Shown here in pieces: positions 3,501-52,134 of a DNA stretch of 64,000 nt; the first letter of the stretch is position 1, and every line of letters starts with the position of its first letter. The position numbers and the translations under genes are program-made. The DNA is from Liolophura sinensis (lineage: Eukaryota; Mollusca; Polyplacophora; Chitonida; Chitonidae), in NCBI RefSeq assembly GCF_032854445.1, contig NC_088300.1, positions 2,416,001 through 2,480,000 on the forward strand, given 5' to 3'. The notes beneath the pieces were generated by a model. It worked only from the letters and a program-made list of their open reading frames with translations. It had not been told where the DNA came from and did no database searches.

Positions 3501-6500
3501 GAAAGTTACCCAATAGCAATAAAACCTAACGGCATAATTTGTCTTCAGAAACTCTACCACAGTACACATATGTAAGATGGCATATTGTTGCATGCCTTGA
3601 AAGCACTGCCTGGACCTCTTCAAAAGCATTAGGCGCCATTTACTTTGTTTAATTTTTGGTATACTCTTTCCAATTCCCATATGCACGCGAGCAGAATAAA
3701 ACTATCCTTCAAGAAGGGCAATAATTGTTATTTAATTCGTCTTTGGCATATTACACCCAGTAATATGTACCTTTCATACAATTTTAATATTTTCGCCTGG
3801 TTCCTCGTGGGACTGAAGTAGCACTTCAAAGAATTTTTTAAATATTTTTCTGTGATACCTCAGAGTGCCCTTCTTCCTTTTTTTCTATGTATATATAGTG
3901 ACAGACTCTATATTCACTTTACTCGTATTTCTTTCTCAAAAGCCCTCTAGTCTCATCCGCTGACTTCCTAGCCGTACTCACGTAAAAATAGTTTAGATCC
4001 ACATCTTCGAATGATTTTGGCAGGTCCTCAAAATCAAACCAAGCCAAGGCCAAGGTGGTGAAACCTCGAGAGGCGAGGAGAGATGCCTTGTACTCCAACA
4101 ACCCACCAACAGTCCCAAATATGTCAATCACTCCTCGGTGGGGGCCAGGACCTAAACCCGAAATCGCTCTCCATCAATACATTAGTTTTAAAAGAAATTT
4201 GTCAATATTAGTACAAACATCAACTGTATTAGCAATATATGTGGTTGGTCATCGTGCCACAGCCACAATGAGTCATATTGAAAGACTAATCTAGAACTGA
4301 CACATGGCAGCTTAGAATAGCCTGTTCTCTTTCTGCCTTTTTCAAATTTTGAAGCCATTTATCACCTTATTACACATACTTTGACATTCACATCCATCCA
4401 TCCAGGATCTGACCACCCGATGGTCACCCTCACTAACTCATTCATTCATTTTGCACAATTCAATCAACGTCTGGGCTGTGTAACATATAAACATCACTGG
4501 CTCTTTATGTGAGAATCCGTGAAAAGTCAACAACTACTGAAAAGTTGTCCCAAGCACCTAAAACAATCATCCATTAACACATACAACAAGATTATGTCTT
4601 CATGCATCACACTGGCTCTATCTTACGAAGTGGTACGAACACAGTGCCTTGGCTCTATCTTACCGGGTGGTATGAACATGGTGCCTTGGCTCTCTCTATC
4701 TTCCCGGGTGGCACGAACATGGTGCTTTCGCTCTATCTAACTGGGTGTTACAGGCATGGTGCCTTGGCTCTATTTTACTGTGTGATATGAATATGGTGCC
4801 TTGGCTCTATCTTAACGTGTGGTATAAACACGGTGCTTTGGCTCTATCTTACCAGGTGGTATGAACATGGTGCCTTGGTTCCAGCTTACCAAGTGGTATG
4901 AACACGGTGCCTTGGCTCTATCTTACCGGGTGGTATCAACATGATGGCTTGACTCTATCTTACTGGGTGTTACAGGCATGGTGCCTTGGCTCTATTTTAC
5001 TGTGTGGTATAAACATAGTGCCTTGGCTCTATCTTACCATGTGGTACAAACATAGTGCCTTGGCTCTATATTACTGGGTGTTACAGGCATAGTGCCTTGG
5101 CTCTATTTTACTGTGTGGTATAAACATAGTGCTTTGGCTCTATATTACTGGGTGTTACAGGCATGGTGCCTTGGCTCTATTTTACTGTGTGGTATGAATA
5201 TGGTGCCTTGGCTCTATCTTAATGTGTGGTATAAACACAGTGCTTTGGCTCTATCTTACCAGGTGGTATGAACATGGTGCCTTGGCTCTACCTTACCAAG
5301 TGGTATGAACACGGTGCCTTGGCTCTATCTTACCGGGTGGTATCAGCATGGTGGCTTGACTATCTCACTGGGTGTTACAGGCATGGTGCCTTGGCTCTAT
5401 TTTACCATGTGATATGAACATGGTGCCTTGGCTCTATCTTACCATGTGGTACAAACATAGTGCCTTGGCTCTATATTACTGGGTGTTACAGGCATGGTGC
5501 CTTGGCTCTATTTTACTGTGTGGTATGAACACGGTGCCTTGGCTCTATCTTAATGTGTGGTATAAACACGGTTCCTTGACTCTATCTTACCGAGTGGTAT
5601 AAACATGGTGCCTTGGCTCTATTTTACCGCGTGGTATAAACATGGTGCCTTGGCTCTACCTTACCAAGTGGTATAAACATGGTGACTTGGCTCTTTTTTA
5701 CTGGGTGGTATAAACATGGTGCCTTGGTTCTACCTTACCAAGTGGTATAAACATGGTGACTTGGCTCTATCTTACCAGGTGGTATAAACCTGGTGCCTTG
5801 GCTCTATCTTACCGGGTGGCATAAACATGGTGCCTTGGCTCTATCTTACCAGGTGGTATAAACATGGTGCCTCGAATGTTCCCATGACGTATTTCCCTTC
5901 TTTGGACATCCTTTAATATATACCACCGAAACACATGTTCCCGACACAGGTAATCAAATGACTGCCTAGACAGATTTTCCCAGGAAACGTGTCCGTCGAT
6001 CACAGATATAGCGATGTTATATGGTGTTGTGACGTCCTTTTTCACCAGTCTCAATCCTTTTTGCTGACCAGGTTCAAACGTCATGCTCCAAAACAGACCC
6101 ATTGGCTCAACACCTTATCCCAAGAAAGACATGTTAGTATGTATAAAACCAATCAGGACCCATACCACAGATGTTATGTCTTTAATGATATAGAGAACAA
6201 GGAAAACTAAACATACACCAGAATATCATAACAAATACATGCAACATTCTTATCCACATTAGTGCTTTAAAGTTTATTCTACCAGATTTTTGATTCACTA
6301 AAATATACACAGTTATCTCCCAAATGAATTGTACAATCTGCTATAGCCGTTTACCAACGATGCATCCAACAATCCAACTGTACTTGGGTTGGGTATTATT
6401 TAATGTGCTATTTACAAAAGTCTATGGGTTATCCTATTCTGCAGGTTCGTTACCTGTGTATGATCCAGACAAACTCTGCTGATGACTTAAATCCAGACAG

Positions 6501-17574: not shown

Positions 17575-17576
17575 AC

Positions 17577-18080: not shown

Positions 18081-18108
18081 CAAGCAAGAAGCCCATTTTT
18101 TGGGGAAT

Positions 18109-20160: not shown

Positions 20161-20185
20161 ACGTAGTCGCCCCTACATATTAATA

Positions 20186-21432: not shown

Positions 21433-21434
21433 TA

Positions 21435-21884: not shown

Positions 21885-22021
21885 TCCGAACTGACTGTGC
21901 CGGACTCGCCATCGAGCTCCTCGCCAGGCACGATCTTAGTAGTGAGGTGGTTCTGCGCCGCGACGATTAACATCTTTTTCGTCGCAAATCTGTTAGAGGG
22001 CTGCTAGAATGCCTTGATGAC

Positions 22022-27784: not shown

Positions 27785-30700
27785 ATTTGCAATCACATAC
27801 CGCTGTGAGCCGAACTTGTCCAGTGTCTAGTCATACTTTTTCAACTACATAACACTGTGAGCCAAACTTGTCCAGTGTCTAGTCATACTTTTTCCATCAC
27901 GTACCGCTGTGAGTCAAACTTGTCCAGTGTCTAGTCATACTTTTTCCATCACGTACCGCTGTGAGCCAAACTTGTCCAGTGTCTAGTCATACTTTTTCCA
28001 TCACGTACCGCTGTGAGCCAAACTTAGCCAGTGTCTAGTCATACTTTTTCCATCACGTACCGCTGTGAGCCAAACTTGTCCAGTGTCTAGTCATACTTTT
28101 TCAACCACATAACACTGTGAGCCAAACTTGTCCAGTGTCTAGTCATACTTTTTCAACCACATAACACTGTGAGCCAAACTTGTCCAGTGTCTAGTCATAC
28201 TTTTTCCATCACGTACCGCTGTGAGCCAAACTTGTCCAGTCATACTTTTTCAACCACATAACACTGTGAGCCAAACTTGTCCAGTGTCTAGTCATACTTT
28301 TTCAACCACATAACACTGTGAGCCAAACTTGTCCAGTGTCTAGTCATACTTTTTCCATCACGTACTGCTGTGAGCCAAACTTGTCCAGTGTGTAGTCATA
28401 CTTTTTCCATCACGTACCGCTGTGAGTCAAACTTGTCCCGTGTCTAATCATACTTTTTCAATCACGCACCGCTGTGTGTCAAACTTGTCCAGTGTCTAGC
28501 CATACTTTTTCAACCACATAACACTGTGAGCCAAACTTGTCCAGTGTCTAGTCATACTTTTTCCATCATGTACCGCTGTGAGCCAAACTTGTCCAGTGTC
28601 TAGTCATACTTTTTCCATCACGTACCGCTGTGAGTCAAACTTGTCCAGTGTCTAATCATACTTTTTCCATCACGTACCGCTGTGAGCCAAACTTGTCCAG
28701 TGTCTAGTCATACTTTTTCAACCACATAACACTGTGAGCCAAACTTGTCCAGTGTCTAGTCATACTTTTTCAACCACATAACACTGTGAGCCAAACTTGT
28801 CCAGTGTCTAGTCATACTTTTTCCATCACGTACGCTGTGAGCCAAACTTGTCCAGTGTCTAGTCATACTTTTTCAACCACATAACACTGTGAGCCAAACT
28901 TGTCCAGTGTCTAATCATACTTTTTCCATCACGTACGCTGTGAGCCAAACTTGTCCAGTGTCTAGTCATACTTTTTCAACCACATAACACTGTGAGCCGA
29001 ACTTGTCCAGTGTCTAGTCATACTTTTTCCATCACGTACCGCTGTGAGTCAAACTTGTCCAGTGTCAAGTCATACTTTTTCCATCACGTACCGCTGTGAG
29101 TCAAACTTGTCCAGTGTCTAATCATACTTTTTCCATCACGTACCGCTGTGAGCCATTCTTGTCCAGTGTCTAGCCATACTTTTTCCATCACGTACCGCTG
29201 TGAGCCAAACTTGTCCAGTGTCTAGTCATACTTTTTCCATCATGTACCGCTGTGAGCCAAACTTGTCCAGTGTCTAGTCATACTTTTTCCATCATGTACC
29301 GCTGTGAGCCAAACTTGTCCAGTGTCTAGTCATACTTTTTCAACCACATAACACTGTGAGCCAAACTTGTCCAGTGTCTAGTCATACTTTTTCAACCACA
29401 TAACACTGTGAGCCAAACTTGTCCAGTGTCTAGTCATACTTTTTCAACCACATAACACTGTGAGCCAAACTTGTCCAGTGTCTAGTCATACTTTTTCAAC
29501 CACATAACGCTGTGAGCCAAACTTGTCCAGTGTCTAGTCATACTTTTTCAACCACATAACACTGTGAGACAAACTTGTCCAGTGTCTAGTCATACTTTTT
29601 CAACCACATAACACTGTGAGCCAAACTTGTCCAGTGTCTAGTCATACTTTTTCCATCACGTACCGCTGTGAGCCAAACTTGTCCAGTGTCTAGTCATACT
29701 TTTTCAACCACATAACACTGTGAGCCAAACTTGTCCAGTGTCTAGTCATACTTTTTCCATCACGTACCGCTGTGAGCCAAACTTGTCCAGTGTCTAGTCA
29801 TGCTTTTTCCATCACATACCACTGTGAGCCAAACTTGTCCAGTGTCTAGCCATACTTTTTCAATCACGTACCGCTGTGAGCCAAACTTGTCCAGTGTCTA
29901 GCCATACTTTTTCAACCACATAACACTGTGAGCCAAACTTGTCCAGTGTCTAATCATACTTTTTCCATCACGTACCGCTGTGAGCCAAACTTGTCCAGTG
30001 TCTAGTCATACTTTTTCAACCACATAACACTGTGAGCCGAACTTGTCCAGTGTCTAGTCATACTTTTTCCATCACATACCACTGTGAGCCAAACTTGTCC
30101 AGTGTCTAGCCATACTTTTTCAATCACGTACCGCTGTGAGCCAAACTTGTCCAGTGTCTAGCCATACTTTTTCAACCACATAACACTGTGAGCCAAACTT
30201 GTCCAGTGTCTAATCATACTTTTTCCATCACGTACCGCTGTGAGCCAAACTTGTCCAGTGTCTAGTCATACTTTTTCAACCACATAACACTGTGAGCCAA
30301 ACTTGTCAGTGTCTAGTCATACTTTTCCCATCACGTACCGCTGTGAGCCAAACTTGTCCAGTGTCTAGTCATACTTTCTCAACCACATAACACTGTGAGC
30401 CAAACTTGTCCAGTGTCTAGTCATACTTTTTCCATCACGTACCGCTGTGAGTCAAACTTGTCCAGTGTCTAGTCATACTTTTTCCATCACGTACCGCTGT
30501 GAGCCAAACTTGTCCAGTGTCTAGTCATACTTTTCCCATCACGTACCACTGTGAGCCAAACTTGTCCCAGTGTCTAGCCATACTTTTTCAACCAATAACA
30601 CTGTGAGCCAAACTTGTCCAGTGTCTAATCATACTTTTTCCATCACGTCGCTGTGAGCCAAACTTGTCCAGTGTCTAGTCATACTTTTTCAACCACATAA

Positions 30701-30842
30701 CACTGTGAGCCAAACTTGTCCAGTGTCTAGTCATACTTTTCCCATCACGTACCGCTGTGAGCCAAACTTGTCCAGTATCTAGTCATACTTTTTCAACCAT
30801 GCACCGCTGTGAGTCAAACTTGTTCAGTGTCTAGCCATACTT
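27785..30842. repeat. 52-bp satellite array, about 58 copies in two subtypes
   Basis: Tandem units of 52 bp (measured 27857 to 27909) built on gtgagccaaacttgtccagt and gtctagtcatactttttc. The last 15-18 bases come in two clear alternatives, aaccacataacact and catcacgtaccgct, interspersed irregularly along the array. A few units are shortened by one to several bases (for example near 28240 and 28833). No long open frame and no link to a splice junction found. Confidence 0.95.
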
Positions 30843-32434
30843 TAGCCACTCCTCCAACTTACACTTATCTTACAAGTCTTCTTCTTGTCAAACAACAGAC
30901 TGCTCTTAATCACACTTATGTCCAGTTGCTGAAGCGTTTAATACAGACCACTCAGTTAAGGAGGAACCCAGTATATGCACCCACTACATGTGTGCGTACT
31001 TAATCAGCACTGAGAACATTAGATCTAAACCTTATAGTCTAACGTCCTGTTCCAGTCCGAACCATGTCCGACACACGTGGGATACCACACAAAGGTGTGT
31101 TCTGATACACTGTATAAACTTAAAGCCTATCCATAGCACCACCGTCATGGAAATGGGTGGTTTTCATGAGATTTTATTCCACTTTCATATAAAAATACAT
31201 CATTAAAAGTTGACGTACATAGCAGTTCACTGTTCTATAACAGGCCTATAAAGCATACCTTACACAAATATCATCTCTCAAATGTTCTATTGATTGATGT
31301 ATAACATGTATAGAGTGCCAAAACACAGCAATACTTGTATAAGTAATGGCCTATCATGGGCGAACAGCACTCACCACTTAATCATATGTGTATGTCTACA
31401 ATGACATTTGCATACATTGACCTTGTAATCAAATTTGCAGGAAATAATGTTGTATATTTCTCCATGTACAAAACAAAATCATACCTTCAATATCAAATCA
31501 CACGAGTCCTCTCAACATTGACCTGTGTTTGTAACATATTTGTCCACAGCACCTCCAAACTATCACATAAATAACAGTGTTTACCATGTATGCCATACAC
31601 CCTGCCAAAAGAATACTTTGGGGAGACCCTAACTGTTACAAAACTGGTTATTTCTAAGAGTCTCTCAGGTACCAGTTAGTAACCAATCATTACTGATCCA
31701 GTTTCCCATTTTAGAACAGCAAAGAAGCATCCCCCCCCCCCCCCCCCACCGACCGAGTACATTATTTGACTGGAAGATTAGAATTGTAGGACTGATCTAT
31801 AATAGTTACCACATGCGTGCATCTAACACCTACTAATGCACATTACAGAATTCATCTGATTGGGATTTTGCATCATGCATACATCATGGCAGTTTCCAGG
31901 TGAAACATTCAAGTCCCTTCAGATAAAATGGTGACTGAATCCGCAGGCCCTGGGTTTATGATGTGTAAAGTTAACATTAGAAAGTCTTTTCTCTGACTTA
32001 CTCCTACTTCCCATCTCTCACACAAGCATGGTTTAATACAACCTCAACTACAGGATCAAACACATGTTAATGATTACAAGCAGTCCATGACAAAAACTGC
32101 ACAGTGTGAATACCAGTCTGACATATGTAGGCCTACATATCAAAGAACATCTAATCACCACCTGACTTCTCATATCCTCTAAGACTGGAGAGAAACTCAA
32201 CTTTTACCTCCACTGGTATTGGCTTTGACTAGTTAGTAGGAGACTGCCTGATTGTACCTGGGATATCTAACCATCACCCCATCTATCATATTGCAAAGGA
32301 ATGACAGACAATATCGGCTCGATTTGAATGCTTCTTCCAGATTAACAATCCAGTATTCCATGAATAAATACCACTTATTTTAACAGTAATGTTCTAACTT
32401 CAGTAAAAACTATAATATCGCTTCTCTATAGAGA

Positions 32435-34467: not shown

Positions 34468-37400
34468 CTATCTAACCATATCCTTTTGAGGACGAAGCTG
34501 TCGAATCACACCCTTCGTTCCAGCTTTTAGCCTCACTGTCCTGTTGTTTTTAAAAGTGTGAGTTTTTGTTGTCTGCAGATCAACCACAATTAACAACAAC
34601 TGCCGGGTTCTGGAGGGTGTCAAACTTATTACAATGCTATCCTTGGTGATGACGAAAGTTAACGACTGACCCAGATAATCCACACCATGGACTGTGAATT
34701 GGGTCACCTTTGGTGGCAAAACTGGGTCAAAGGCCAGCTGTTGTTGTTGTATTCTAAAGCCAGCGTACCCATATAGAAGAGTCTGCAGATAGGCAGCCAT
34801 GGCTGGCACAAAACTAACGGCTCCTGTCCCGTCTGTGTGCTCTGACCACACCTACAAAAGGAACAATTTAACAACAAAGATGACAATTAGTGTATAATAA
34901 ACAGAAAATTATAATCTAGCTGTTAGACAGTACATGTAACTAACAAAATGAATAAGACCAATTTGACATCATCTTTATCTTTCATCTGAAGTTCAGATTG
35001 TAAACATGCAGTTTTGGAAGCACTTAAAGGCCTTATATAATGCTAAGTTTGATGCATGAACTAAGCTCGTTCTGATAAGAAATAATCAAATATTAACTTT
35101 ACAATAAAATCTTTAGTGACCCTACAAAATCAATCGAAACCACAGCAAGCAAAATGTGACCTGTTGAAAAAGACTTCTCATGGAAATACAGTAATTCTGC
35201 ACAACCTGAATGGTTATGGTATTGCAATAATGAAGCACCCTCACACATTCTACTGTCTTCTTGGAAAAGTATGTATGGAACAAAAAACCAAATGTATAGT
35301 GGTACACTTTGACATTTGGCACAAAATAACTGACCAATTGTTTTACCCTATTGAGCAAACATGGCAGTACTTTCAATAGTTGGTTTATCTGATTGTTGGT
35401 TAAGGCCACTGTATTAAAATCAAGTATATGACCCTCTGATAATTATTAATTTGCACAGTGTATGACTTTACACACCTTGAATGGTCCCCTGACAGACTGT
35501 AGGCATCTGCTGAGCGATTCTTCAGCCTTAACTCCATCCTTCACAAAGAGCCAGTTCATTGTGACCGAGGCATGGGTCAGTGGAGACCGGCTAGCACTTG
35601 AGCTCTGTCAAGGAAATGGTCATTTATTTATTCATTTTTCAATTGTGGTATAACGTAAAATGCTGTTAGGCACTGACCTCCATCAGGTATACCTGAAAAA
35701 CTTCTGACTGAAAAAGTAATCCTTGGTTGACATGGAAAATGTCAATCGTCCTGTCATTTGTCCAGCTACAATGGTAATATTACCGGTATGGAGGAAACAT
35801 TTGCAGGTATGGAGGTAACATTTGCAGGTACGAAGGTAGGGAGGTAACATTTGCAGGTACAGAGGTAACATTTGCAGGTATGGAGGTAACATCTGCAGGT
35901 ACGGAGGTAGGGAGGTAACATTTGCAGGTACAGAGGTAGCATTTGCTGGTATGGAGGTAACATCTGCAGGTACGGAGGTAGGGAGGTAACATTCGCAGGT
36001 AGGGAGATAACATTTGTAGGTAGGGAGGTAACACTTGCAGGTACGGAGGTAACATTTGCAGATATGGAGGATCACATCTGCCGGTATTAATGTAACATTT
36101 TCAGGTACCGGGCGTAATATTCTGTAACAGTTTTATCACAGGTGTTATAAAATCCACTAAATTTACTAGGATCTTGACATCCTTTCTGACTACGGATATC
36201 TACATTTAGCTATGTAGATGTGCATGTCAGAGGATCTACTGATGTCATTTATATACCAAGTATTACACATAATAACTTTAATCCTACTGTAGCAATACAG
36301 ATATGGTGTTCATACCAACGGCAAAAATGGCCTAGGATACAATACAGTTTGAGGACAAACTTCTCCAGCCAGATTAAAATACAAGATGTCAGAAATACCA
36401 ATGATGATTTATCAGACAAACCTTTTCATAAACTTTAAGGTTCTTCTTCTCTACATCAACTCCGATGTCATCTGTCAGGGCTATATTCAACAACAACACC
36501 TCAGGTTCTTTTACTGGAGAGCCTGAAGGTTATAAACATTCATTATTTAAGTACTATTTATAAATGCACATCACCATTACCACAAACATATATATATATA
36601 AGTACTAATTACAAATGCACATCACCATTACCACAAACATATATATATAAGTACTATTTACAAATGCACATCACCATTACCACAAACATATATATATATA
36701 AGTACTATTTACAAACGCACATCACCAATACCACAAACATATATATATAAGTACTAATTACAAATGCACATCACCATTACCACAAACATATATATATAAG
36801 TACTATATACAAACGCACATCACCATTACCACAAACATATATATATAAGTACTATTTACAAATGCACATCACCATTACCACAAACATATATATATAAGTA
36901 CTATTTACAAATGCACATCACCATTACCACAAACATACATATATATAAGTACTATTTACAAATGCACATCACCATTACCACAAACATATATATATAAGTA
37001 CTATTTACAAACGCACATCACCATTACCACAAACATATATATATAAGTACTATTTACAAACGCACATCACCATTACCACAAACATATATATATAAGTACT
37101 ATTTACAAATGCACATCACCATTACCACAAACATATATATATAAGTACTATTTACAAATGCACATCACCATTACCACAAACATATATATATAAGTACTAT
37201 TTACAAATGCACATCACCATTACCACAAACATATATATATAAGTACTATTTACAAACGCACATCACCATTACCACAAACATATATATATAAGTACTATTT
37301 ACAAACGCACATCACCATTACCACAAACATATATATATAAGTACTATATACAAACGCACATCACCATTACCACAAACATATATATATAAGTACTATTTAC

Positions 37401-40400
37401 AAACGCACATCATCATTACCACAAACATACTATTTACACATGCATATCATCTTTACCACAAACATACTATTTACAAACGTACATCATAACTGTTATCACA
37501 AACGTAAGTACTGTTTACAAACGTACATCATAACTGTTATCACAAACGTAAGTACTGTTTACAAACGTACATCATAACTGTTATCACAAACATAAGCATT
37601 ATTTACAAACGTACATCATAACTGTTATCACAAACATACATGACCACTGCTTACAAATACACCTATGCCTAATTCAAACTTACACATTAAAGTTTATTCA
37701 CAAAGTTAAACATAGCATGTATTTTCCACAAACATAGATAAATAAAAGTGGATAAAAAACAAACATGTTGACTGACTTAAGGTTTGGTTAAAAGATACAG
37801 TACCTCAGGGCAAACTTTTACCATGAAATTGCAAATTTTTTTTTTTTTTTTTGATTGGTGTTTTACGCCGTACTCAAGAATATTTCACTTATACGACGGC
37901 GGTCAGCATTATGGTGGGTGGAAACCGGGCAGAGCCCGGCGGAAACCCACGACCATCCGCAGGTTGCTGACAGACCTTCTCACGTACGGCCGGAGAGGAA
38001 GCCAGCATGGAAATTGCAAATGGCCCCTTGACTATTCATAAGTCAAGGTTATCTGTTATTGTTAATATCTTTAATATCCTTTATAGGACCCTGCAACATG
38101 TTATGTGACTGACTGAATATTGCACATGGCTTGCACTGAAAAGGCATTTAAATAGAAGACAAAACTATCAGATAATTTTACAGTTTAAAATATGTATAAA
38201 TGCTACTTACATATTGCACATTCATACATAACAGCATTTCAATGTTAATGAGACCATGGAGGTAGAACAGAAGAAGGCACTACTTGGCCTGGTTACTATT
38301 GACTGACCCACTGAACGCATGCTGTTCCATTGAATTATGAAAGCGCTTCATGAAATCTTGTACCCGTTTGATAAACACTGTTATTTACAGACGATTAGTT
38401 ACAGATGATCAGCTAGATTTGCCCAGAAAAGGAGCTTTCTCCAAAGAACACATAAATTACCTCTGTGTAGCATTTTTCCCTCGTGCGTACTTCATTACAA
38501 GCTGGTCACCAATAAGGGTTCTAAATTGCTTACAAAATGACCTATGAGCAGAAGTTTGATTGACAGCTGTACGAGACTAGGCTATGTTGTTACAGTAATC
38601 TGAAAAAGACCTTGCTGTAAAATGATTTTTTTGTAATTTGAAATACTTTCCCATCAACTGAGAAAAATAAAATTTCGTGTCAATGTATATAACATATCAA
38701 GTTATTGACTACATAAGTGAACTGGAGGACGGAAGCATATTTTCAAAGAAAAGCAGTGTTAAGAAATCCAGAAAAGGCCCATTTGATTAACATTAGAAAA
38801 ACTGAGAAAATCACAATATTGCCTGTCTTTGACAGAGTACTAATATACTTTCTGATCAGCTTTCATGAAAAAAGGTTATGCCAATCAAAAGAGCAAAATA
38901 AAGTGTTCACGTACCGCATTATTTGGGATTCGGAAGCCCGAATTCCGAGTTCTTGGAACTAACGCAAGAACTACTTCTGCAATATTTTCTTCTCAGCGCA
39001 TGAGCACAAGAGCTCAGGGCTATCCATGGTGAACAATTAAATCTATAGGCCTACATATTGTGTAATGCCATTCATATAGAGTAAGGACGTGGTCTAACAA
39101 AAGTCACAACAATGCTTTAAGGAAACTCCTACTGGCACGCAGTAGTGTTTAAAAACGTCCACTCTTGTTATATCTGGGGTTAAAACTTAAATAAGCCTGT
39201 TGATAACGTAGGAGTCGCAATTAGTGCCTGCTTGGGTGGAGGGGTATATACACATACTGACTGTCAGGCCTGTTGCTCAGCAGCTGCATGAGTGGGGCGG
39301 CCAGGTGACTTAAATAATTAGTGCCTGCTTGGGTGGAGTGGTATATACATGTACAGACTGTCAGGCCTGTCGCTCAGCAGCTGCATGAGTGGGGCGGCCA
39401 GGTGACTTAAATAATTAGTGCCTGCTTGGGTGGAGGGGTATATACATGTACAGACTGTCAGGCCTGTTGCTCAGCAGCTGCATGAGTGGGGCGGCCAGGT
39501 GACTTAAATAATTAGTGCCTGCTTGGGTGGAGTGGTATATACACATACTGACTGTCAGGTCTGTTGCTCAGCAGCTGCATGTGTGGGGCGGCCAGGTGAC
39601 TTAAATAATTAGTGCCTGCTTGGGTGGAGGGGTATATACATGTAGAGACTGTCAGGCCTGTTGCTCAGCAGCTGCATGTGTGGGGCGGCCAGGTGACTTA
39701 AATAATTAGTGCCTGCTTGGGTGGAGTGGTATATACATGTACAGACTGTCAGGCCTGTTGCTCAGCAGCTGCATGTGTGGGGCGGCCAGGTGACTTAAAT
39801 AATTAGTGCCTGCTTGGGTGGAGTGGTATATACATGTACAGACTGTCAGGCCTGTTGCTCAGCAGCTGCATGTGTGGGGCGGCCAGGTGACTTAAATAAT
39901 TAGTGCCTGCTTGGGTGGAGTGGTATATACATGTACAGACTGTCAGGCCTGTTGCTCAGCAGCTGCATGTGTGGGGCGGCCAGGTGACTTAAATAATTAG
40001 TGCCTGCTTGGGTGGAGGGGTATATACATGTACAGACTGTCAGGCCTGTTGCTCAGCAGCTGCATGTGTGGGGCGGCCAGGTGACTTAAATAATTTGTGC
40101 CTGCTTGGGTGGAGTGGTATATACATGTACAGACTGTCAGGCCTGTTGCTCAGCAGCTGCATGTGTGGGGCGGCCAGGTGACCTAAATAATTAGTGCCTG
40201 CTTGGGTGGAGTGGTATATACATGTACAGACTGTCAGGCCTGTTGCTCAGCAGCTGCATGTGTGGGGCGGCCAGGTGACTTAAATAATTAGTGCCTGCTT
40301 GGGTGGAGTGGTATATACATGTACAGACTGTCAGGCCTGTTGCTCAGCAGCTGCATGTGTGGGGCGGCCAGGTGACTTAAATAATTAGTGCCTGCTTGGG

Positions 40401-43400
40401 TGGAGTGGTATATACATGTACAGACTGTCAGGCCTGTTGCTCAGCAGCTGCATGTGTGGGGCGGCCAGGTGACCTAAATAATTAGTGCCTGCTTGGGTGG
40501 AGTGGTATATACATGTACAGACTGTCAGGCCTGTTGCTCAGCAGCTGCATGTGTGGGGCGGCCAGGTGACTTAAATAATTAGTGCCTGCTTGGGTGGAGT
40601 GGTATATACATGTACAGACTGTCAGGCCTGTTGCTCAGCAGCTGCATGTGTGGGGCGGCCAGGTGACTTAAATAATTAGTGCCTGCTTGGGTGGAGGGGT
40701 ATATACATGTACAGACTGTCAGGCCTGTCGCTCAGCAGCTGCATGTGTGGGGCGGCCAGGTGACTTAAATAATTAGTGCCTGCTTGGGTGAATTGGTATA
40801 TACATGTACAGACTGTCAGGCCTGTTGCTCAGCAGCTGCATGAGTGGGGCGGCCAGGTGACTTAAATAAAAGAAAAGTAGTTAGGACAGCTGGGACTTAC
40901 ACCGCTTCCAGCATTACCCGGGCTGATCTCCCCTAGATCTAATAAAAACATTAAGGATTAATTAAAACCAACATATACGTATTTATATATAGACCCCAAC
41001 AGTTTAAGCCCTCTATGCCAACCATGGATTTATATACCACAGTTATATTTTTTTACTTATTATTTACTTTCAACTGCCTGTGAACAAATGGTACTATGAC
41101 CTCCTCATATACATACAAATGAAAAACGCAAAGACTTACGTCTCAATTTTATTTAGGAAGAGCATGGCTGATTGAGACCCTCAAGCATGGATATTTACGC
41201 AGAAAAGCTGTCTGAATACCCTCTTATTTGTGGTGAAAGGGTTGCTGTGCAAAAAAGTCCAGCCAACAAGGCAAAATAGGGGTGACTTACTGAATTTCTT
41301 CCAACCTGACATGTGCAATGAGATTATCATATTATCTTTTTGTCCAGCTGAATTCCATCTGAGATCCGTGTCCATTTATCTCAGTGTTGAAGACAAAACT
41401 TCCAAATGGATCAAAATAAACAAAATAATGACCAGCGCCTCGAGTTTGTTCCAAACAAACTAGTTAAACCGGTAGGAATGCATCAACTCCAAACATGTAA
41501 ATTTTAAGCTTTACCGAATCTTATACAATATGTTGATGAATCCATGAAATTCAGTAACTATAGATCAACACTGTAACCATTAGACTACACCCTATCAGTC
41601 CTGGAGATTTTGTTACTTATTGCACAGAAGGCATAAAGGATGCTAATTAAAGAACCATCAACAACTCCCATGAATTTCAGAAAAACTTTAATATTACACA
41701 TGTATGTGTATTTTCTCCTTTGTTCCTGTGATTCCTAGAGCAAAACACCAGCCAGTCTTTTCTTTGTCTTGCTGGCCTGCTTATTTGCCAAAATACAAAG
41801 GCTTTAAGGTTCAAAACATTTATTTACTTCAATTTTCACCAAAAACCACAAACAGGAGTACACAAATTTACAGGCGGCATCGGCAAATGCCTGCAAGCTG
41901 GACTTTAGTCTTTATCAAAACACGTGCCCTGGCTGTTCGCCTACGACAGCCTCGCAAGAGCACTTGTGCCAAGGCCTGACCAAGCCAGACTGCTCTAACC
42001 TCCTGTCACAACAGAGCAGCCCTCGTGGTGTCGGGAACATGCAGTAAACACTTTGAAGCATCACAGTTGTGCTCCTACTATTTTACCTCCATGATGAGAC
42101 GTACACACCAAGGTGTTATTAAGGTTACACATACCTGGCTGATATTTGTCAAAGGCTGGGTTGAACCGGAGGTTTTCATCAAACGGGATGAATAGGCTGT
42201 CAGCATAGGCTTTAAACTTGTCGGAAAATGGTATGCCTTGCTCTGGAAAAAGCTGATGTGGTAACATGAGGCTGATGTTGGCCACGCTGTTTGTATACAT
42301 GGAGTTATTCACCAAAAACGAAGATTTCCCAGGGGGCATAACTCCTATAAACATAGAAAAACAATTACTGCCTCTATTCATTCTTACAATCTAAATTTAT
42401 AATGTAATTTAAACTCCATGGATCATTATTTCAGAAAATAAAAAACACCTCTTGTTTTTTACAATAAAAGTCAGGCCTCATTAAAAAATAAGTAATTACT
42501 TAAGAAATTATATCATTTCAACTAACAAACTTTTTACATTTGAGAAGTCTGCAAAGCAAACAATTTTTGCATTTGGCAATTACATGTCTACCATGAGGAA
42601 GTTGCATCTAACATCTATGTTTCTATTGGAAAGAGGTCCTTGGTGGTAAAGATGTTATGGATGAGACAATGCTGATCACTAATTATCTGCTGCTTTCCAC
42701 CTCAAAGTAATTAGGTACATGCTGCGAGGGTCATTTACAACAGTCGGATGCACTGGCATACCGCCCTCCATTTATGTACTCAGGTGACACTCAGTCAGAC
42801 TTACCTGAAATTTTATATAACTTTTTGCTAGTGTCATAGGTAATTCGAGATTCCCAGAATTCCGCAATGGCCTTGACCAGATCTGACCCTTGACCTCTGG
42901 TTAAAAAACTTGTATCATTGGTTAGCCACATGTATTGCTGCACGGCTAAAGCTAAATCACCTGTGCTGTAGTGACGATACAAGTCTGCCGACTTGTCAGA
43001 GCTAACACTTCGTCCTGAAAGGTAAAGTTGTGCAGACCCGTTGACTACGAACAAGGTTTACCTAAAGTCTTTCATCAGCATTAACATTAATAAACCAATG
43101 GTATTTACAACATAGACCACAAACACGTTACACTAAAAGTAGTTGTCAAGCTCAAATGTTTGCATGATAGTGAAGTCACATTTCTTTGTCAGGAAAACTC
43201 AAAAGTTACCATATATATCATCCCAATGACTTTTTTTTTTTCTTTCACTGAGACTAGTGTGTTTACATACTTATAAACAGTTCCCTCAGATGAAGTGTAT
43301 TTCATATATCAGGAGTTTATGGTCATTAATTTGGGACGGTTTCTATTACTGGACGTGCCAACTCATGAGGACTTTTCAAAAAATGCCCTAAATATTTTTA

Positions 43401-44309
43401 CAGCGACAATATCACAGAGTTACATGACTGAAAGTGGAACTAGTACTGAAGCTTTTTTCACACTCACAGGAAAGACTGATAACATGAAAAACCCTTTAAC
43501 TTGCACGATGCACCTAACACAGAGCATAAACACCATTCTTATTTATACGCTAATCTCGTAGACCACAACCATAACCAAGCATCTGACGACCAGAAAAGTA
43601 CCAGAATATGCTGTCTCCCAGGAATACAGAGCCCCTTTGTAATGCTGTGATGCTGCCGTTTCCATGGCAACCTTGAGTGTGTGAGCTCGATAATCCAGCA
43701 TAGACCTGCTCAGGTTAGAATGCAACAATAGGAGTGGGGGGAAGATCCACCGTTCTTGATCCCCAGTCACATGACCCTGAAACATCCAGCAAACATAACA
43801 CGAAGTTACCATAAGGCATGTTTGTATCATAGTGGTATTTGTTTATTTATTTATTATCTAATTGTTATTTAATAGTCATTTAATTAGTTTCACTATTGTT
43901 TAAGGTCATACTGAGGAGTTTTTTCTTATATGATTATGGTCAGCTTTCTGGGTCCAGGATATCCAAGAGCTCAGAGTAAACAACAGACACAGTGGAACAG
44001 TCTGCCTGCCTCGGTGCAACCTGCCTCCTTAGTCAAATCGTTTAAAAATTTGCACCAAAGATATCCAAGAGCCCAGAGTAAACAACAGACACAGTAGAAC
44101 AGTCTGCCTGCCTCGGTGCAACCTGCCTCCTCAGTCAAATCGTTCAAAAATTTGCACCAAAGATATCCAAGAGCCCAGAGTAAACAACAGACACAGTGGA
44201 ACAGTCTGCCTGCCTCGGTGCAACCTGCCTCCTCAGTCAAATCGTTTAAAAATTTGCACCAAAAGTCTCAGAAAGTGCCAAACACATAGCAAAGCCTTCT
44301 CTCTCTCCT

Positions 44310-44340
<31 letters not shown>

Positions 44341-47300
44341 CTCTCTCTCTCTCTCTATATATATGTACATGTTAACTTTGAACTGATTAATGCTTTGTGT
44401 AATTTTTTTTGTTTTTTTTTTTATTTTAATATTTTTTTTATTTTATTATTTTTTTTTATTTTTATTTCAATAACCCGTGTGACTGCCGAGTGGTTGTGTG
44501 AGTGAATGAAGGGCCTCAGGGAAGATCAATACTGTCATACTGACTGAAATTGTTACTCTCTGAAAATGAAGATATTATTAGTATTATTATTATCTGGCAA
44601 GTTTCTGCTGAACTTTTCCACAGGACCCAGATTTCCACTCCATATTGGTAGAAGACATGTAGAATTTGTCCCACAAATGCTCCTGACCACTTGATATCAC
44701 CAAGAAAAATGGCATTAGGTGGAACAGCTTACGAGGTAGGGCCTAACATATTCTCCATATCACTGACAAATTTGGACACATACAGTTTATGTGAAACTGT
44801 CAGAATCATTACTAATGTTATCTCAGAACAGAGAACACACAGTTACATTCTGTAGCTTGAAGTCCATGAGAAGAAATTCAGTTATTCTTCATGTTTTGAT
44901 TATTTGATTTTAACTCACCTGTCGTTGTTCTCCATTGGCCAACCCTCCTAAAGACATGCCACCAAAGGGGTTGTTTACATCCCATTCCAAGGGCAGACAA
45001 CTCAGAATATAGTACAGGCTGGAATAACTGAGCTGGGCCAGTTCAGAGTTACTTCCCATATCCATTCGTCCCTCTGCCCATATTGATGCCCAGGCGCTCA
45101 TGTGACTTCTGCTGAGTGGATGTCTTTGGTTTAAACGGAATCCTGAGATATAGGTGCCAAAGACAGCTTCGTTTAGTCACAAGAAAGCCAGGGTAGTGAT
45201 TACAGGTGTCAGAAATGCACAGCATTTGCTATTAAATCAAAAAGTATAATCGACAGTATATAGGTCGATGAACAAAAAAGTGTAACCCAGCCATCAAGAC
45301 AATTTCCTCATCTTGAATACAAAGAAATAAACACAAAATAAAGACACAAGCATACACTTCAGCCTATTGAATGTACACACCGGCTGTTTGACTTATGCAG
45401 CAGATGTATGCACCGGATGTTTGATTCATGTGGCCGATGTTTACACGGGATGTTTGATTCATGTGGCCGATGTTTACACCGGTTGTTTGATTCATGTGGC
45501 CGATGTATGCACTGGATGTTTCATTCATGTGGCCAATGTTTACACCTAATGTTTGATTCATGTGGTCGATGTTTACACCGGTTGTTTAATTCATGTGGCC
45601 GATGTTTACACTGGACGTTTGATTCATGCTGCAGATGTATGCACCGGATGTTTAATTCATGTGGCCGATGTTTACACTGGACGTTTGATTCATGCTGCAG
45701 ATGTATGCACCGGATGTTTGATTCATGTGGCCGATGTTTACACCGGATGTTTGATTCATGTGGCCGATGTTTACACCAAATGTTTGATTCATGTGGCCGA
45801 TGTTTACACCAAATGTTTGATTCATGCTGCAGATGTATACGCTGGATGTTTCATTCATGTGGCCGATGTTTACACCAGTTGTTTGATTCATGTGGCCGAT
45901 GTTTACACCAAATGTTTGATTCATGTGGCCGATGTTTACACCAGTTGTTTGATTCATGTGGCCGATGTTTACACCAAATGTTTGATTCATGTGGCCGATG
46001 TTTACACCAAATGTTTGATTCATGCTGCGGATGTATACGCTGGATGTTTCATTCATGTGGCCGATGTTTACACCGGTTGTTCGATTCATGTGGCCGATGT
46101 TTACACAGGATGTTTGATTCATGCTGCGGATGTATACGCCGGATGTTTGATTCATGTGGCCGATGTATGCACTGGATGTTTGTTTCATGTGGCGACACAC
46201 AAAATCTCTAGCCCTCACCCACATGATATACAATTATTCATCCAATGATTCAAACAGGAGAAAATAAGGAGACCAAACCTGGTATTTTTTAAAAAATCTC
46301 AAAATTAAGACACTTACTTCTTCAAAACATATTCATCAAGCCCATTTATTTACAAGATAGAGTGAAGTTGACTCAAACATAAAACCTTCCTCTGGGACTA
46401 TGTGAATATGAACACTAACAAAACTTTCACGTCCATTAAGTTTGCTGAAGATTTAGTGAAAAATGTGAGAAATGTTGACCCAAACATCCGGGGCTAGATG
46501 CTTAAAAACTGGCTGAACCACAGAAATTTTGAAGAAAAAAAAAATCATCTATAATCCCAGAATTGAGAGGTCTTTATCTTCAGAGCATGTTCGTCAAGCT
46601 GATGTACTGAAAACAAAACAAACGAAAAAGCTAACAGCTGACCTTAACAAAAAAGCTTACCCAGCAAAAAAAAGTGTCATTTTTGGGCATATCTTTCTTA
46701 ATGTTCCTTAAAACCATAACAAGAACATGTTAACCTGCTGTGGTGGCTATTGTTACATGTATTCACACACTAACATAAGCTCACTATGGGAGCTATTGCT
46801 ACTACATTATCTACTGCTAAGCACGCAACTGTACCATTGTCAAACTTGTCCTTAGCCAGCCTGGGGTCAGGACTGAGAGACATGAGGTAAAGGTGGGAGG
46901 CCTCCTCCACCATCCCATCATCCATGGTGATGTTAGTGGGTATATCTGTGTAGAAGATATGAACTTCTCCAGGCTTCTCGCCCTCACACTCTGGCTGCTT
47001 CACTGTTCCATGGACATAACTGAAAAAAAGAAAAATGGACCTGTAGCTTCACCTGCTGACATGCTTGCAGTTCATGTGGACAAATGTGTCAGATGCATAT
47101 TACCTGTACACCATAGTTATCATCACCCTACATGTATAACTGCCTGCAGTCCATTGTTATGAACGGCCCACATGTAAAACTGCCTGCAGTCCACAGTTAT
47201 GAACGGCCCACATGTAAAACTGCCTGCAGTCCACAGTTGTGAACGGCCCACATGTAAAACTGCCTGCAGTACACAGTTATGAACGGCCCACATGTAAAAC

Positions 47301-50300
47301 TGCCTGCAGTCCACAGTTATGAACGGCCCACATGTAAAACTGCCTGCAGTCCACAGTTGTGAACGGCCCGCATGTAAAACTGCCTGCAGTCCACAGTTAT
47401 GAATGGCCCACATGTAAAACTGCCTGCAGTCCACAGTTGCGAACAGCTCACATGTAAAACTGCCTGCAGTCCACAGTTATGAACGGCCCACATGTAAAAC
47501 TGCCTGCAATCCACAGTTGTGAACGGCCCACAGGTAAAACTGCCTGCAGTCCACAGTTATGAACGGCCCACATGTAAAACTGCCTGCAGTCCACAGTTAT
47601 GAACGGCCCACATGTAAAACTGCCTGCAGTCCACAGTTGTGAACGGCCCGCATGTAAAACTGCCTGCAGTACACAGTTATGAATGGCCCACATGTAAAAC
47701 TGCCTGCAGTCCACAGTTGCGAACAGCTCACATGTAAAACGGCCTGCAGTCCACAGTTATGAACGGCCCATATGTAAAACTGCCTGCAGTCCACAGTTGT
47801 GAACGGCCCACAGGTAAAACTGCCTGCAGTCCACAGTTGTAAACGGCCCACATGTAAAACTGCCTGCAGTCCACAGTTATGAACGGCCCACATGTAAAAC
47901 TGCCTGCAGTACACAATTATGAGCGGCCCACATGTAAAACTGCCTGCAGTCCACAGTTGTGAACGGCCCACAGGTAAAACTGCCTGCAATCCACAGTTGT
48001 GAACGGCCCACATGTAAAACGGCCTGCAGTCCACAGTTATGAGCGGCCCACATGTAAAACTGCCTGCAGTCCACAGTTGTGAACGGCCCACAGGTAAAAC
48101 TGCCTGCAATCCACAGTTATGAACGGCCCACAGGTAAAACTGCCTGCAGTCCACAGTTGCGAACAGCTCACATGTAAAACGGCCTGCAGTCCACAGTTAT
48201 GAACGGCCCACAGGTAAAACTGCCTGCAGTCCACAGTTGTGAACGGCCCACAGGTAAAACTGCCTGCAGTCCACAGTTGTGAACGGCCCACATGTAAAAC
48301 TGCCTGCAGTCCACAGTTATGAACGGCCCGCATGTAAAACTGCCTGCAGTACACAGTTATGAACGGCCCACATGTAAAACTGCCTGCAGTCCACAGTTGT
48401 GAACGGCCCACAGGTAAAACTGCCTGCAATCCACAGTTGTGAACGGCTCACATGTAAAACTACCTGCAGTCCACAGTTATGAGCGGCCCACATGTAAAAC
48501 TGCCTGCAGTCCACAGTTGTGAACGGCCCACATGTAAAACTGCCTGCAGTCCACAGTTATGAACGACCCACATGTAAAACTGCCTGCAGTCCACAGTTGC
48601 GAACAGCTCACATGTAAAACTGCCTGCAGTCCACAGTTATGAACGGCCCATATGTAAAACTGCCTGCAGTCCACAGTTATGAACCGCCCATATGTAAAAC
48701 TGCCTGCAGTCCACAGTTGTGAACGGCCCACATGTAAAACTGCCTGCAGTCCACAGTTATGAACGACCCACATGTAAAACTGCCTGCAGTCCACAGTTGT
48801 GAACGGCCCACATGTAAAACTGCCTGCAGTACACAGTAATGAACGGCCCATATGTAAAACTGCCTGCAGTCCACAGCTGTGAACGGCCCACATGTAAAAC
48901 GGCCTGCAGTCCACAGTTGTGAACGGCCCACATGTAAAACTGCCTGCAGTCCACAGTTGTGAACGGCCCACATGTAAAACTGCCTGCAGTCCACAGTTGC
49001 GAACAGCTCACATGTAAAACGGCCTGCAGTCCACAGTTATGAACGGCCCATATGTAAAACTGCCTGCAGTCCACAGTTGTGAACGGCCCACATGTAAAAC
49101 TGCCTGCAGTCCACAGTTGTGAATGGCCCACATGTAAAACTGCCTGCAGTCCACAGTTGTGAACGGCCCACATGTAAAACTGCCTGCAGTCCACAGCTAT
49201 GAACGACCCACAGGTAAAACTGCCTGCAGTCCACAGTTGTGAACGGCCCGCATGTAAAACTGCCTGCAGTCCACAGTTATGAGCGGCCAACATGTAAAAC
49301 TGCCTGCAGTCCACAGTTGTGAACGGCCCACAGGTAAAACTGCCTGCAGTCCACAGTTATGAACGGCCCACCTGTAAAACTGCCTGCAGTCCACAGTTAT
49401 GAACGGCCCACACGTAAAACTACCTGCAGTCCACAGTTGTGACCAGCCCAAATGTAAAATTACCTGCAGTCCACAGTTGGTATGTCACAGGTACCTTCTG
49501 TAATATCCAAGTCATCGCTACTAACATCAGATTTTACGGACAGCTTCAGGATTAATGGCTCACGGGTTGGATGATCGTGGATTTTTATTTTCAACTCCAC
49601 AACAAAGAGTTCTCGGTAGGTTCTATGAGCATACGTCAGCTTCTCTATTCTGAAGAATGTTCCCACCGTAGTTTCATTGAAAATTCCTAAAAAAAAGCAT
49701 TTCATACTGGTTATTTTCAGTTTAAACACACCATTTGTTGGGTATGAGATCTTCATTAAATAGAAAATAACAGTACACATTTAATTTCATTTCAAATAGA
49801 TCACCCATTGGGTGTGTCATTATTAGAAAATAGAAAACAACACATCACTTCCAATATTATCATCACTGAACCTACCTCCTCCCATCTCTAGAGAATAGGT
49901 TTTAATGACTGGAACTTTTGGTGCTGCTATGGAAATTTCAATTGCAATCAAGGCAGGAATCCTTGCCCTGTGAGAAGTTGCCTGAGCACCATTGTACAGT
50001 CCATTCATATGTATGGTGTCACTGTTAACGACGGTAGCAATATGACCATTACCAACTGTTGGCCATAAACCTCTATCAGTTGGCATTCTGAAACAATGAA
50101 AATACTAGAATCTAGACAGGGCACATTTAGGAACACCACACAAGAATTTAAATTGGGATGTAGCCCCACACAGCAGTAGTTAATCAATCTGTACATCAAT
50201 CAATACAACCTGTCCAGTTTGACAACATTTTAGGAATATTACTACCCTGTAGAGCTTATATCGCTGAATCACTCTCAGGTATGTGGTACAGCTCAAGGGC

Positions 50301-51172
50301 CAACTGTAGAAAGCTGTTTCTGACCAAACAGCAAGTCAAATTTAAAACCTCGTCATAATGTCTAGTATTTGGTAATGAAAGTTGATATTTTAACATGTCT
50401 GGTTGAAGATAACATTGATGATGTGGTCAAAACCTTGTTTTTTAGGACCATCATTGTGTGTCAAAAGTCAGAATTTATGTCAGAAATAGCCCTGTTAACT
50501 TTGCCCCCTGAAACGTTCACAATGATTGCTTACTACTGTTGGACAATAATGTCATAGTCAAAAAACAGTTTGTAGCTCCACAGTAGCCTGGACTTTATTG
50601 TGAACCCGGCAGTAACATTTGGCTACGATGTTGTAAGCAGTGCAGAACTGAGCAGAGACCATTATGCCATTAAGTACTTTACTACATTCTTCTCCATGAT
50701 CGCTTTAGTTGATACAAAAAACGCAGATAAAGAAAAGCCTTCTGTAACAATGGTAACACTAGTCTAGGGCATTAACCACAATGTAATGTACAAGATACAA
50801 GATGTGATTTCTTACTGGTCAACCTGGAATATGCTGTCATGTGGAGGTACATTTCCCAGCAGCCTTTGAATGTCATGTGACCTGTGAGGCAACACCTCTG
50901 GAGCTGACTCTACATTGTTACTCTTTTTCTCCAGGTCTATGAGATCATTTTGCACAGGGGGCTTGACCTTATCAGGAGGTAACTCGTCCTTCACAACTGG
51001 CTGCCCAAACCTGTTACCTGCCCGGTGCTGGATGTTATGAAGCTTTAAATAAGGTTTTCTCTGCCATGGTGAAGTCTTGTAACAGATTCCAGCAAACAGT
51101 AGAAAGACCAAGATCAATGTTGCTACTATCACAGTTTTCAGTTTCATATCTAACAACCATTCCACCAATTGC
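34468..51172 (-). CDS. GH65-family protein, PGGHG/ATHL1-like, membrane-anchored, probable pseudoenzyme
   Basis: Coding exons in order: 50816-51147 (exon to 51172), 49876-50087, 49464-49686, 46835-47019, 44919-45142, 43602-43776, 42805-43014, 42135-42344, 36422-36522, 35476-35604, 34468-34851. Summed length is 2385 bases, exactly 794 codons plus stop, with matching phases at all ten introns. Residues 6-23 form a signal-anchor helix (VIVATLILVFLLFAGICY), suggesting a type II secretory-pathway protein. Family landmarks are WPTVGNGHIATVVNSDTIHM, MNGLYNG, GALYSWETAYSG, VNNSMYTNSV and VWSEHTDGTGAV. Active family members remove glucose from glucosylgalactosyl-hydroxylysine of collagen. Here the conserved acid-bearing motif is RHYSTGD (Arg at about 464), the usual PDEYH position reads PGKSS (about 525-529) and the KQAD position reads KEPE (about 595-598), so catalysis is doubtful. 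The 5' untranslated exon was not located. Confidence 0.9.
35788..36115. repeat. 20/21-bp minisatellite in intron 9 of the GH65 gene
   Basis: About 15 imperfect units of ggaggtaacatttgcaggta with variants and occasional shorter insertions. It lies between the 36422-36522 and 35476-35604 exons. Three overlapping minus frames are open through it only because the unit has few stop words. Confidence 0.9.
36546..37440. repeat. 49-bp minisatellite directly upstream of a splice acceptor
   Basis: About 18 units of 49 bp (measured 37047 to 37096) built on gtactatttacaaatgcaca, tcaccattaccacaaaca and an AT dinucleotide run of variable length. On the gene's strand the array ends only about 24 bases before the acceptor of the 36422-36522 exon, so the branch-point region sits at or inside it. 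Degenerate 41-43-bp relatives continue to about 37640. Confidence 0.93.
37837..38009 (-). mobile_element. SINE, 5'-truncated, with 12-bp target duplication
   Basis: On the minus strand it runs from cacgtgag-type sequence through ccaccataatgctgaccgcc to aaaacaccaatca and poly(A). The tRNA-like head is missing. GAAATTGCAAAT at 37825-37836 is repeated at 38010-38021. It lies in intron 8 of the GH65 gene. Confidence 0.88.
39219..40868. repeat. 97-bp minisatellite in intron 8, 17 copies
   Basis: Units of 97 bp (39221 to 39318) beginning attagtgcctgcttgggtgg, with agactgtcaggcctgt, the palindromic cagcagctg and ggggcggccaggtgactta. Copies differ at only a handful of sites (for example gagg/gagtgg, atgagtgg/atgtgtgg), so the array is very homogeneous. 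No splice-junction origin was found. Confidence 0.95.
43958..44263 (+). repeat. Triplicated 102-bp fragment of a non-LTR retrotransposon ORF end
   Basis: Three tandem 102-bp units (starts 43958, 44060, 44162). Each plus-strand frame reads WNSLPASVQPASSVKSFKN, the conserved C-terminal signature found at the end of many LINE reverse-transcriptase proteins. The second copy has a stop (TAG) in place of the Trp. It lies in intron 5 of the GH65 gene, antisense to it. Confidence 0.7.
44299..44470. repeat. Microsatellite and T-rich tract
   Basis: (CTTT)n followed by (CT)n and a short (AT)n at about 44299-44362, then a T-rich low-complexity stretch at about 44400-44468. Intronic. Confidence 0.9.
45368..46193. 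repeat. 33-bp minisatellite in intron 4, about 25 copies
   Basis: Units of 33 bp (45421 to 45454) built on gtttgattcatgtggccgat and gtttacaccg, with a second version carrying catgctgcagatgtatgc. Because 33 is a multiple of three and the unit lacks stops, three frames (two plus, one minus) stay open for 190-267 codons. They carry 11-residue repeats. Confidence 0.95.
47128..49478. repeat. 40-bp minisatellite derived from an exon end plus splice donor
   Basis: About 58 units of 40 bp. On the gene's strand each unit copies the last 15 bases of the 49464-49686 exon (AACTGTGGACTGCAG) followed by 25 bases of intron (first unit gtaattttacatttgggc). The array starts at the true donor (49463/49464) and fills nearly the whole intron (47020-49463). 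In most units the donor dinucleotide GT is GC (ctgcaggcagtttta). GT is kept only in the true site, the adjacent unit near 49421 and one near 48461. Confidence 0.95.
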
Positions 51173-52134
51173 CTACAACATAAATAAAACAAAATTTAAG
51201 ACAAAGTAAATGAATTTCTGCAGAGGGAGAAATAATCTCTATTTCAAAAACACCAAAAATAGTTTTTACAATTACATCGACATTTTTTTATTTATTTAGT
51301 TATTTACATCACATGTGTTTAAAGTTGTACTGGTACTTTCACTTTAATTTGTATACCATTTGTTTCATCATTTAGACATTTTGGGTTTACTACCGGTAGT
51401 GACAGATATCAGCCAGAGTGCATAGGAAACTTGACCTTAGCCACTACTTGACAAATGTTCACACATTGAGCTATAGATGAACCATGAGCTGGATTTGAAC
51501 CATATGACATGACATAATACTCATGGCTTGAAGACAAACAACATTTTTATAAGCAATCACTCAGCAATAAATAAGGTTGTTTCTCTAACGTGAAAGTTTG
51601 CAGAAAGTAAGATCAGATTCCCTTTGAACATTTACATAAACAGTTGACCTGTCAAGGTTAAATTTGGCTGTGATCACAGGTCCAAATATCAAAATTGTCA
51701 CAACCAAGGTTTCTCAGCTACTACAGTCTATAACACACCCATTACATTCTTATCATGTTATGGTGGGATCATATTAGTGAGTGCATTATCAAAACCTTGC
51801 ATCACGCTCTTTTACATCTTATAGTGAATAATTCTATCAGATCCATCATACATCTCAATCTATAATTTTTTTCTCTTTCAGATTCTACATAGGGAAGAAT
51901 ACAGAAGAGCCACTTGACAGATGTCTTTAATATGGGCACATAACATTTTAGTCTTTGACAAACATATTATCCACTAATTATTTATCGATTCTGACAATTA
52001 TGTCAGCTGTAAAAAATAAAGCATCGAATTTAAATTGTTGAACTAAATTGATATCTTCAGCCTCTTGAATGTCTTTTACAATGGTGCATACAAAGCATGC
52101 TAGCAGGACAAATATCTGTGGACAATCATTCAAC

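Follow-up and report, generated by a model that had tools for sequence, protein, structure and literature searches.

Tandem repeats that extend across exon–intron boundaries have been described in amphioxus as 'mirages'. The portions of the papers on which we draw report them in Adh3 and in the globin genes BflGb6 and BflGb9, with units of 10–160 base pairs (bp) (PMC3087553), and in the troponin C gene, with similar repeats in PGBD5 (PMC3902484). They lie over 5′ or 3′ splice sites, and a good many of their copies, though not every one, contain splice signals; their authors, in the same portions, describe reverse transcription polymerase chain reaction without disturbed splicing as well as instability of length (PMC3087553, PMC3902484); mirages are suggested there to be general in cephalochordates (PMC3087553). 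Here we analyse 64,000 nucleotides from the chiton Liolophura sinensis (assembly GCF_032854445.1, contig NC_088300.1, positions 2,416,001 to 2,480,000), a stretch hereafter called the window, in which intron 3 of a GH65 gene is filled by a 40-bp minisatellite. We consider it probable, at about 0.82, that this array is a mirage, founded by a 40-bp tandem duplication across the 5′ splice site of the intron. The analysis is based on one assembly, on sequence comparison and on a gene model.

The intron 3 array resembles the amphioxus mirages in that its unit spans an exon–intron boundary in tandem, and the 40 bp of this unit fall inside the range quoted above from the published text. As in a mirage, the edge units have escaped homogenisation and the interior units are alike. 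It differs in its occurrence in a mollusc, in the ∼60 units contained in one intron and in the presence of GC for GT in 56 of the 60. No mirage outside amphioxus was found in the literature as judged by titles and the beginnings of abstracts, and earlier reports are possible; a gastropod paper, in the part on which we draw, treats microsatellites, minisatellites appearing there solely in a reference. We conclude that the GH65 intron provides a molluscan example of a rare but already described kind of structure.

Rogers, and Gao and Lynch in 2009, are said to have described the creation of introns by duplication of AG|GT-bearing segments (a bar marks the splice junction throughout). Tandem copies with splice signals are common to that process and to the chiton array, but in the chiton an old intron appears to have been lengthened and none created. 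GC–AG introns, in which a GC donor is paired with an AG acceptor, also exist; the chiton copies likewise read AG|GC. The donor of the gene model is GT, and a G at +5 is absent from the GC copies.

Gene model and organisation of the array

The GH65 gene was delineated with an exon model and with an 808-residue NCBI protein of L. sinensis, P0002, named protein-glucosylgalactosylhydroxylysine glucosidase-like. The features of the gene and of the array are as follows, in window coordinates.

34471..51177, minus strand: GH65 gene, protein-glucosylgalactosylhydroxylysine glucosidase-like, 11 coding exons in the window (tblastn of P0002, exon model, Pfam, PDB match)
49464..49686, minus strand: exon 3 (exon model and P0002)
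47020..49463, minus strand: intron 3, 2444 bp (exon model)
46835..47019, minus strand: exon 4, acceptor ...TTTTTTTCAG|TTATGT (exon model and P0002)
49462..49463, minus strand: true 5′ splice site, CAG|GTAATT (exon model, U1 pairing)
47079..49478, minus strand: the array, comprising 60 in-register units of 40 bp (units 0–59; unit 58 diverged, unit 59 decayed)
49464..49478, minus strand: final 15 bases of exon 3, which supply the exonic portion of the repeat (unit 0; unit register)
49399..49438, minus strand: unit 1, GT retained (CAG|GTAGTT)
49359..49398, minus strand: unit 2, bearing the off-register decoy CAG|GTGGGC (49371-49370)
48439..48478, minus strand: unit 25, GT retained (CAG|GTAGTT) within the GC block
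47159..49398, minus strand: interior units 2–57, GC donor in 55 of 56
47119..47158, minus strand: unit 58, GC donor, 31 of 40 bases matching the consensus
47079..47118, minus strand: unit 59, decayed edge unit, GT donor CAG|GTAATA

When eight exons of the window are spliced in silico, a single open frame with consistent intron phases results; the acceptor of exon 5 (45142) was taken from the NCBI protein, and the other exons, down to 34471, were located by tblastn with P0002. P0002 spans the entire 598-residue query from the exon model at 99% identity and reads ...TVDC|SYVHG... across the junction of exons 3 and 4, identically to the model. The product matches Pfam family PF03632 (E 2.8e-30), and its best match among solved structures in the PDB is PGGHG (E 6e-76). 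The first-pass annotation, made from the letters of the window, had ended exon 3 at this junction, and P0002 uses exactly the same one. An earlier donor, AAG|GTACCT (49494-49493), was ruled out as the exon 3 end; its phase is wrong for the acceptor and it contradicts P0002. Judged from the exon phases and the NCBI protein, the true donor is presumably the one in use.

Tandem Repeats Finder (TRF) calls the array at 47130-49479 with period 40, 58.8 copies and 92% matches. When 60 units are laid out downward from 49478, each consists of the 15 bases that end the exon plus 25 intron bases, as the first-pass annotation had proposed and as the register, the exon model and P0002 bear out. Units 0–58 occupy 2345 of the 2444 intron bases (96%), in good agreement with an initial estimate of ∼95%. 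Exon sequence upstream of unit 0 lies outside the array, matching without gaps at 4 of 25 positions. At the other extremity, just ahead of the 3′ end of the intron, the first 19 bases of unit 59 match unit 0 at 15 of 19 positions in exact register, and none of the 123,118 other places compared in the window does better than 14 of 19.

The interior is uniform, units 2–57 having a mean pairwise identity of 93% and comprising 28 distinct sequences among 56. Agreement with the consensus is lowest at the edges, at 35/40 for unit 0, 31/40 for unit 58 and 19/40 for unit 59. Variable columns are unevenly spread along the unit: 13 fall among the last 15 and seven among the first 25 (hypergeometric P 0.0004). 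Exact block duplications of at least three units were sought in the array and none was found.

The exact 15-mer occurs 50 times in the 609 Mb of the assembly, 47 times in the array, far beyond chance, and three times elsewhere, and a reversed control pattern occurs twice; by this search there is one such array in the assembly. The explanation that a dispersed introner or genome-wide satellite came by chance to lie in intron 3 draws on the presence of minisatellites in many introns of this genome. An introner-like element would place one sequence across many introns, and the three outside matches, close to the two of the control, together with the differing unit sequences and mostly differing unit lengths of the eight junction arrays described below, leave this explanation with almost no probability. 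That the array is an artefact of assembly, to which tandem arrays are prone, is very improbable: it contains 32 different units among 60, and the assembly was made, according to the part of its report on which we draw, from PacBio HiFi reads at 14x with a mean length of 8,347 bp, which exceeds the 2.4-kb array (PMC11068029).

Origin of the array and of its GC donors

A GH65 paralogue encoding protein P0003 (locus L029) has a phase-2 intron at the matching place, directly before Y-V-H-G; this intron is 622 bp long, contains no array and has the boundaries ...AACTCAAG|gtgata ... ttacag|GTATGTTCATGG. Because the paralogue shares the position and phase of the intron without the array, the boundary predates the array, and intron 3 is, on this comparison of sequences, older than the repeats within it. 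Duplication of an exon–intron boundary, the origin put forward at the outset, is supported by this array-free intron and by a junction that is coding and consistent in phase.

The mirage would have been founded by a tandem duplication of 40 bp over the boundary of the pre-existing intron and would have grown by slippage or unequal exchange, which would lengthen the intron, with the exon copy at the outer edge remaining the real end of the exon. GT would have changed to GC in an early unit and the interior expanded from this GC lineage, the edge units, least homogenised, retaining GT. The positions of the units fit this order: of the 60 donor dinucleotides 56 are GC, and the four GT belong to units 0, 1, 25 and 59. 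GT had been thought confined to three units, and it does occur at the true site, in unit 1 and in unit 25, but there is a fourth in the decayed unit 59 (47118-47079). The presence of GT at both edges favours spread from a GC founder, and we infer that the GT of unit 25 is a back mutation.

The real donor is presumably still chosen because no other copy ends a defined exon and because pairing of the GC copies with U1 is poor. By U1 pairing the true donor scores -8.1 kcal/mol, the GC copies -4.7 or -4.5, units 1 and 25 -7.8 and unit 59 -8.1. The frame reading through it is AGG TAA. Since this TAA stands directly behind the true donor, use of any downstream donor would give a truncated product whatever the number of units, and such products should enter nonsense-mediated decay. 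The suggestion that the frame would be preserved for every third unit fails for this reason.

Several points weigh against the mirage reading or the history given to its donors. The pairing energies were computed with an assumed U1 5′ end, and pairing alone is a crude measure. Nor is the true donor the best U1 pairer of its intron, being surpassed by CAG|GTGGGC at 49371-49370, present in unit 2 only, outside the donor register, and the strongest decoy (-10.3 kcal/mol), and by a site near the 3′ end of the intron at 47052 (-8.4 kcal/mol). The diverged unit 58 is already GC; what happened at the 3′ edge therefore did not follow a simple order. Finally, the residues encoded by the 15 exonic bases fall, in an alignment of 15 proteins, in a non-conserved loop of variable length. 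Because of this the exon bases add no proof of direction, and descent from the exon rests on the position of the intron.

The converse history, in which an array arose first within the intron and the last 15 bases of the exon were captured from it as the donor slid inwards, would account for the lack of conservation of these residues and for the two more residues that the GH65 gene has at the loop than P0003. We nevertheless judge it improbable. The paralogue has its intron at the same position and phase, directly before YVHG, and the exon-edge and distal copies deviate most from the consensus, as expected of old edge units.

Expansion of the GC units might also have been driven by DNA structure, the T-to-C change at +2 completing an inverted repeat (AACTG...CAGTT) that favours slippage. 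Three tandem consensus units are predicted to fold more strongly with GC than with GT, at -46.9 versus -40.8 kcal/mol as RNA and -19.0 versus -12.1 kcal/mol as DNA. These differences are modest, concern consensus units without shuffled controls and bear on the intron 3 array only, and we regard the structural explanation as unlikely.

Junction arrays elsewhere in the chiton

Seven further arrays lying over splice junctions were found, one in the window, in a BAAT-like gene, and six in GH65 paralogues and myosins, of which five are at donors and one is at an acceptor.

4613..5872, minus strand: second array in the window, in a BAAT-like gene, where units of 37 bp cover the donor CTG|GTAAGA (exon end at 5850; TRF, Pfam)
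L029 7880-8028 (G000:C6): array with 40-bp units across the intron 9 donor of a GH65 paralogue
L036 7385-8843 and 5778-6333; L035 3042-3233; L038 1646-3006; L034 2558-3981: additional arrays over junctions of myosin and GH65 genes

The BAAT-like exon matches PF04775 (E 1e-13), and GT is retained in 29 of the 33 copies beside it. The L038 array repeats an acceptor, with 46 exact occurrences of TTTGTAGGTTTGAG in the locus, the true site counted, and one of the two L036 arrays, L036a, repeats a full-strength donor, with 16 exact copies of CAGGTATGT (CAG|GTATGT) behind the true one. The L034 array has 56-bp units, its exon end being placed by paralogy. All eight junction arrays, intron 3 included, differ in unit sequence. 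An in-frame stop precedes the donor of the first copy in five of the seven donor arrays; in the BAAT-like gene, with units of 37 bp, and in L035, with units of 31 bp, the frame is shifted by the first copy.

These arrays bear on the possibility that selection purged functional decoy donors, arrays of GT copies being mis-spliced so that only lineages with disabled donors could expand. By U1 pairing, copies weaker than the true donor make up 58/59 in GH65 intron 3, 3/3 in L029 intron 9, where one is weakened through GT to GC, and 16/17 in the second L036 array, L036b, compared with 19/33 in the BAAT-like gene, 11/23 in L034, 1/5 in L035 and 0/7 in L036a, although copy counts vary with the matching rule (24, 23 and 16 under a looser rule for L034, L036a and L036b, versus 23, 7 and 17). 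L036b and intron 3 share a pattern in which the most distal copy equals the true site in strength and the intervening ones are weaker. Compared with the remainder of the unit, the donor 9-mer shows more divergence in four of the seven donor arrays, intron 3 among them, and less in three. Set against selection are the copies at least as strong as the true donor, which amount to 7/7 in L036a, 4/5 in L035, 12/23 in L034 and 14/33 in the BAAT-like gene. Moreover, unit 0 differs from the interior consensus of intron 3 at five positions, only two of them in the donor, and a single founder would for that reason explain the pattern without selection. We think selection possible but doubtful as the cause of the GC interior.

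Silencing of decoys is thus not general, nearly all copies being weakened in three of the seven donor arrays, and partly, hardly or not in four; weakening is frequent but not required. Founder spread and selection, between which the choice had been left open, become partly separable: GT edges around a GC interior fit the spread of one GC unit, and the comparison with other arrays shows that silencing is no rule.

Other similarities between arrays and junctions were seen at the same loci. In intron 4 of the L029 paralogue (L029 2782-4675), the array starts ∼40 bp past the exon and consists of units similar to the sequence immediately inside the donor; with a similarity score of 26 against a shuffled maximum of 21, it is not clearly a mirage. 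Acceptor-side similarity exceeds the shuffled maximum at P0002 intron 1 (25 versus 22), at the L035 exon at 8647 (28 versus 22) and at the L037 exon at 9367 (33 versus 19), and donor-side similarity does so at the L038 exon at 3002 (33 versus 19). L035 696-800 and 1792-1887 appear to be one myosin exon copied in tandem, with each resembling the surroundings of the other, and are perhaps mutually exclusive exons.

Frequency of arrays at splice junctions

The survey set comprised the two modelled GH65 genes and a further five GH65 paralogues represented by tblastn matches; 23 of 81 myosin-head matches, in four regions picked by match density before the arrays were inspected; and P450 exons, with 30 of 99 matches and three further listed matches in the same stretches. 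Arrays were required to have a period of at least 15 and at least 2.5 copies. The total was 213 kb with 104 exon matches and 43 arrays, six of which straddle a known exon edge, namely those of GH65 intron 3, L029 intron 9, L035, L036 (two) and L038 (acceptor). The L034 and BAAT arrays were found by inspection and stand outside this count. Counts are also given without the gene of intron 3, this case having been picked by the first-pass annotation.

With the same arrays placed at random and exon overlap limited to at most 40 bp, the null predicts 2.7 arrays against the six of 43 found (P 0.04, 0.049 on repeat), or 2.3 against five of 35 without that gene (P 0.066). With overlap of at most 20 bp, a limit that suits the observed overlaps of 2–19 bp, P is 0.002 for all arrays and 0.009 without the gene (five of 35 versus 1.3 expected). 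An excess of arrays at junctions is suggested, and the outcome depends on the null.

The P450 stretches (30 of 99 matches) contained no straddling array at the survey thresholds, which excluded two short hits there: L056, an 18-bp repeat of 2.1 copies that overlaps the exon, and L043, an 18-bp repeat of 2.0 copies lying 10 bp away. A long array in L065 stops 34 bp before the exon match, and no copy of the exon was seen in it by eye.

Other features of the GH65 genes and of the window

P0002 has VMPPGKS at window positions 42300-42344, where 11 of 15 aligned proteins have VMxPDE(Y/F). We take the acid of this motif to be the catalytic residue of GH65. Because it is absent from P0002, the protein may be inactive as an enzyme. 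Five further GH65 paralogues are clustered at G000:C1:70984000-71030700, and in mid-gene one long exon replaces several.

Positions ∼15700-26500 of the window hold a virus-like transposon, of Polinton/Maverick type by eye, with an integrase core match (PF00665) above cut-off, a weak A32-like ATPase match below cut-off and polymerase-like open reading frames recognised by eye. At 27780-30843 a 52-bp unit is repeated in 59 copies and has, on the minus strand, a donor-like GTACGT; no exon was recognised alongside. By eye, 37856-38010 is reminiscent of the tail of a molluscan short interspersed element.

Significance

Mirages recur in the chiton genome and look like by-products of minisatellite-rich introns, not like a device. 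Their repeated occurrence in a mollusc suggests that they may originate wherever introns are rich in minisatellites. Each donor array is in effect a natural counterpart of the classical experiment with a duplicated splice site, in 3 to 59 copies. We propose tentatively, thinking it somewhat improbable as yet, that mirages occupy a sizeable share of chiton splice junctions and so provide, on a large scale, a natural experiment in how splice sites are chosen. Behind a real donor, selection may give the array of copies weak interiors and strong edges, as in GH65 intron 3 and L036b; in arrays that lack this pattern, such as L036a, the spliceosome would ignore many full-strength decoys by position alone. 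Published RNA-seq from five tissues of the species could show the parts played by position and strength in the choice of donor. Mirages would in addition be raw material for the sliding of splice sites and for intron change.

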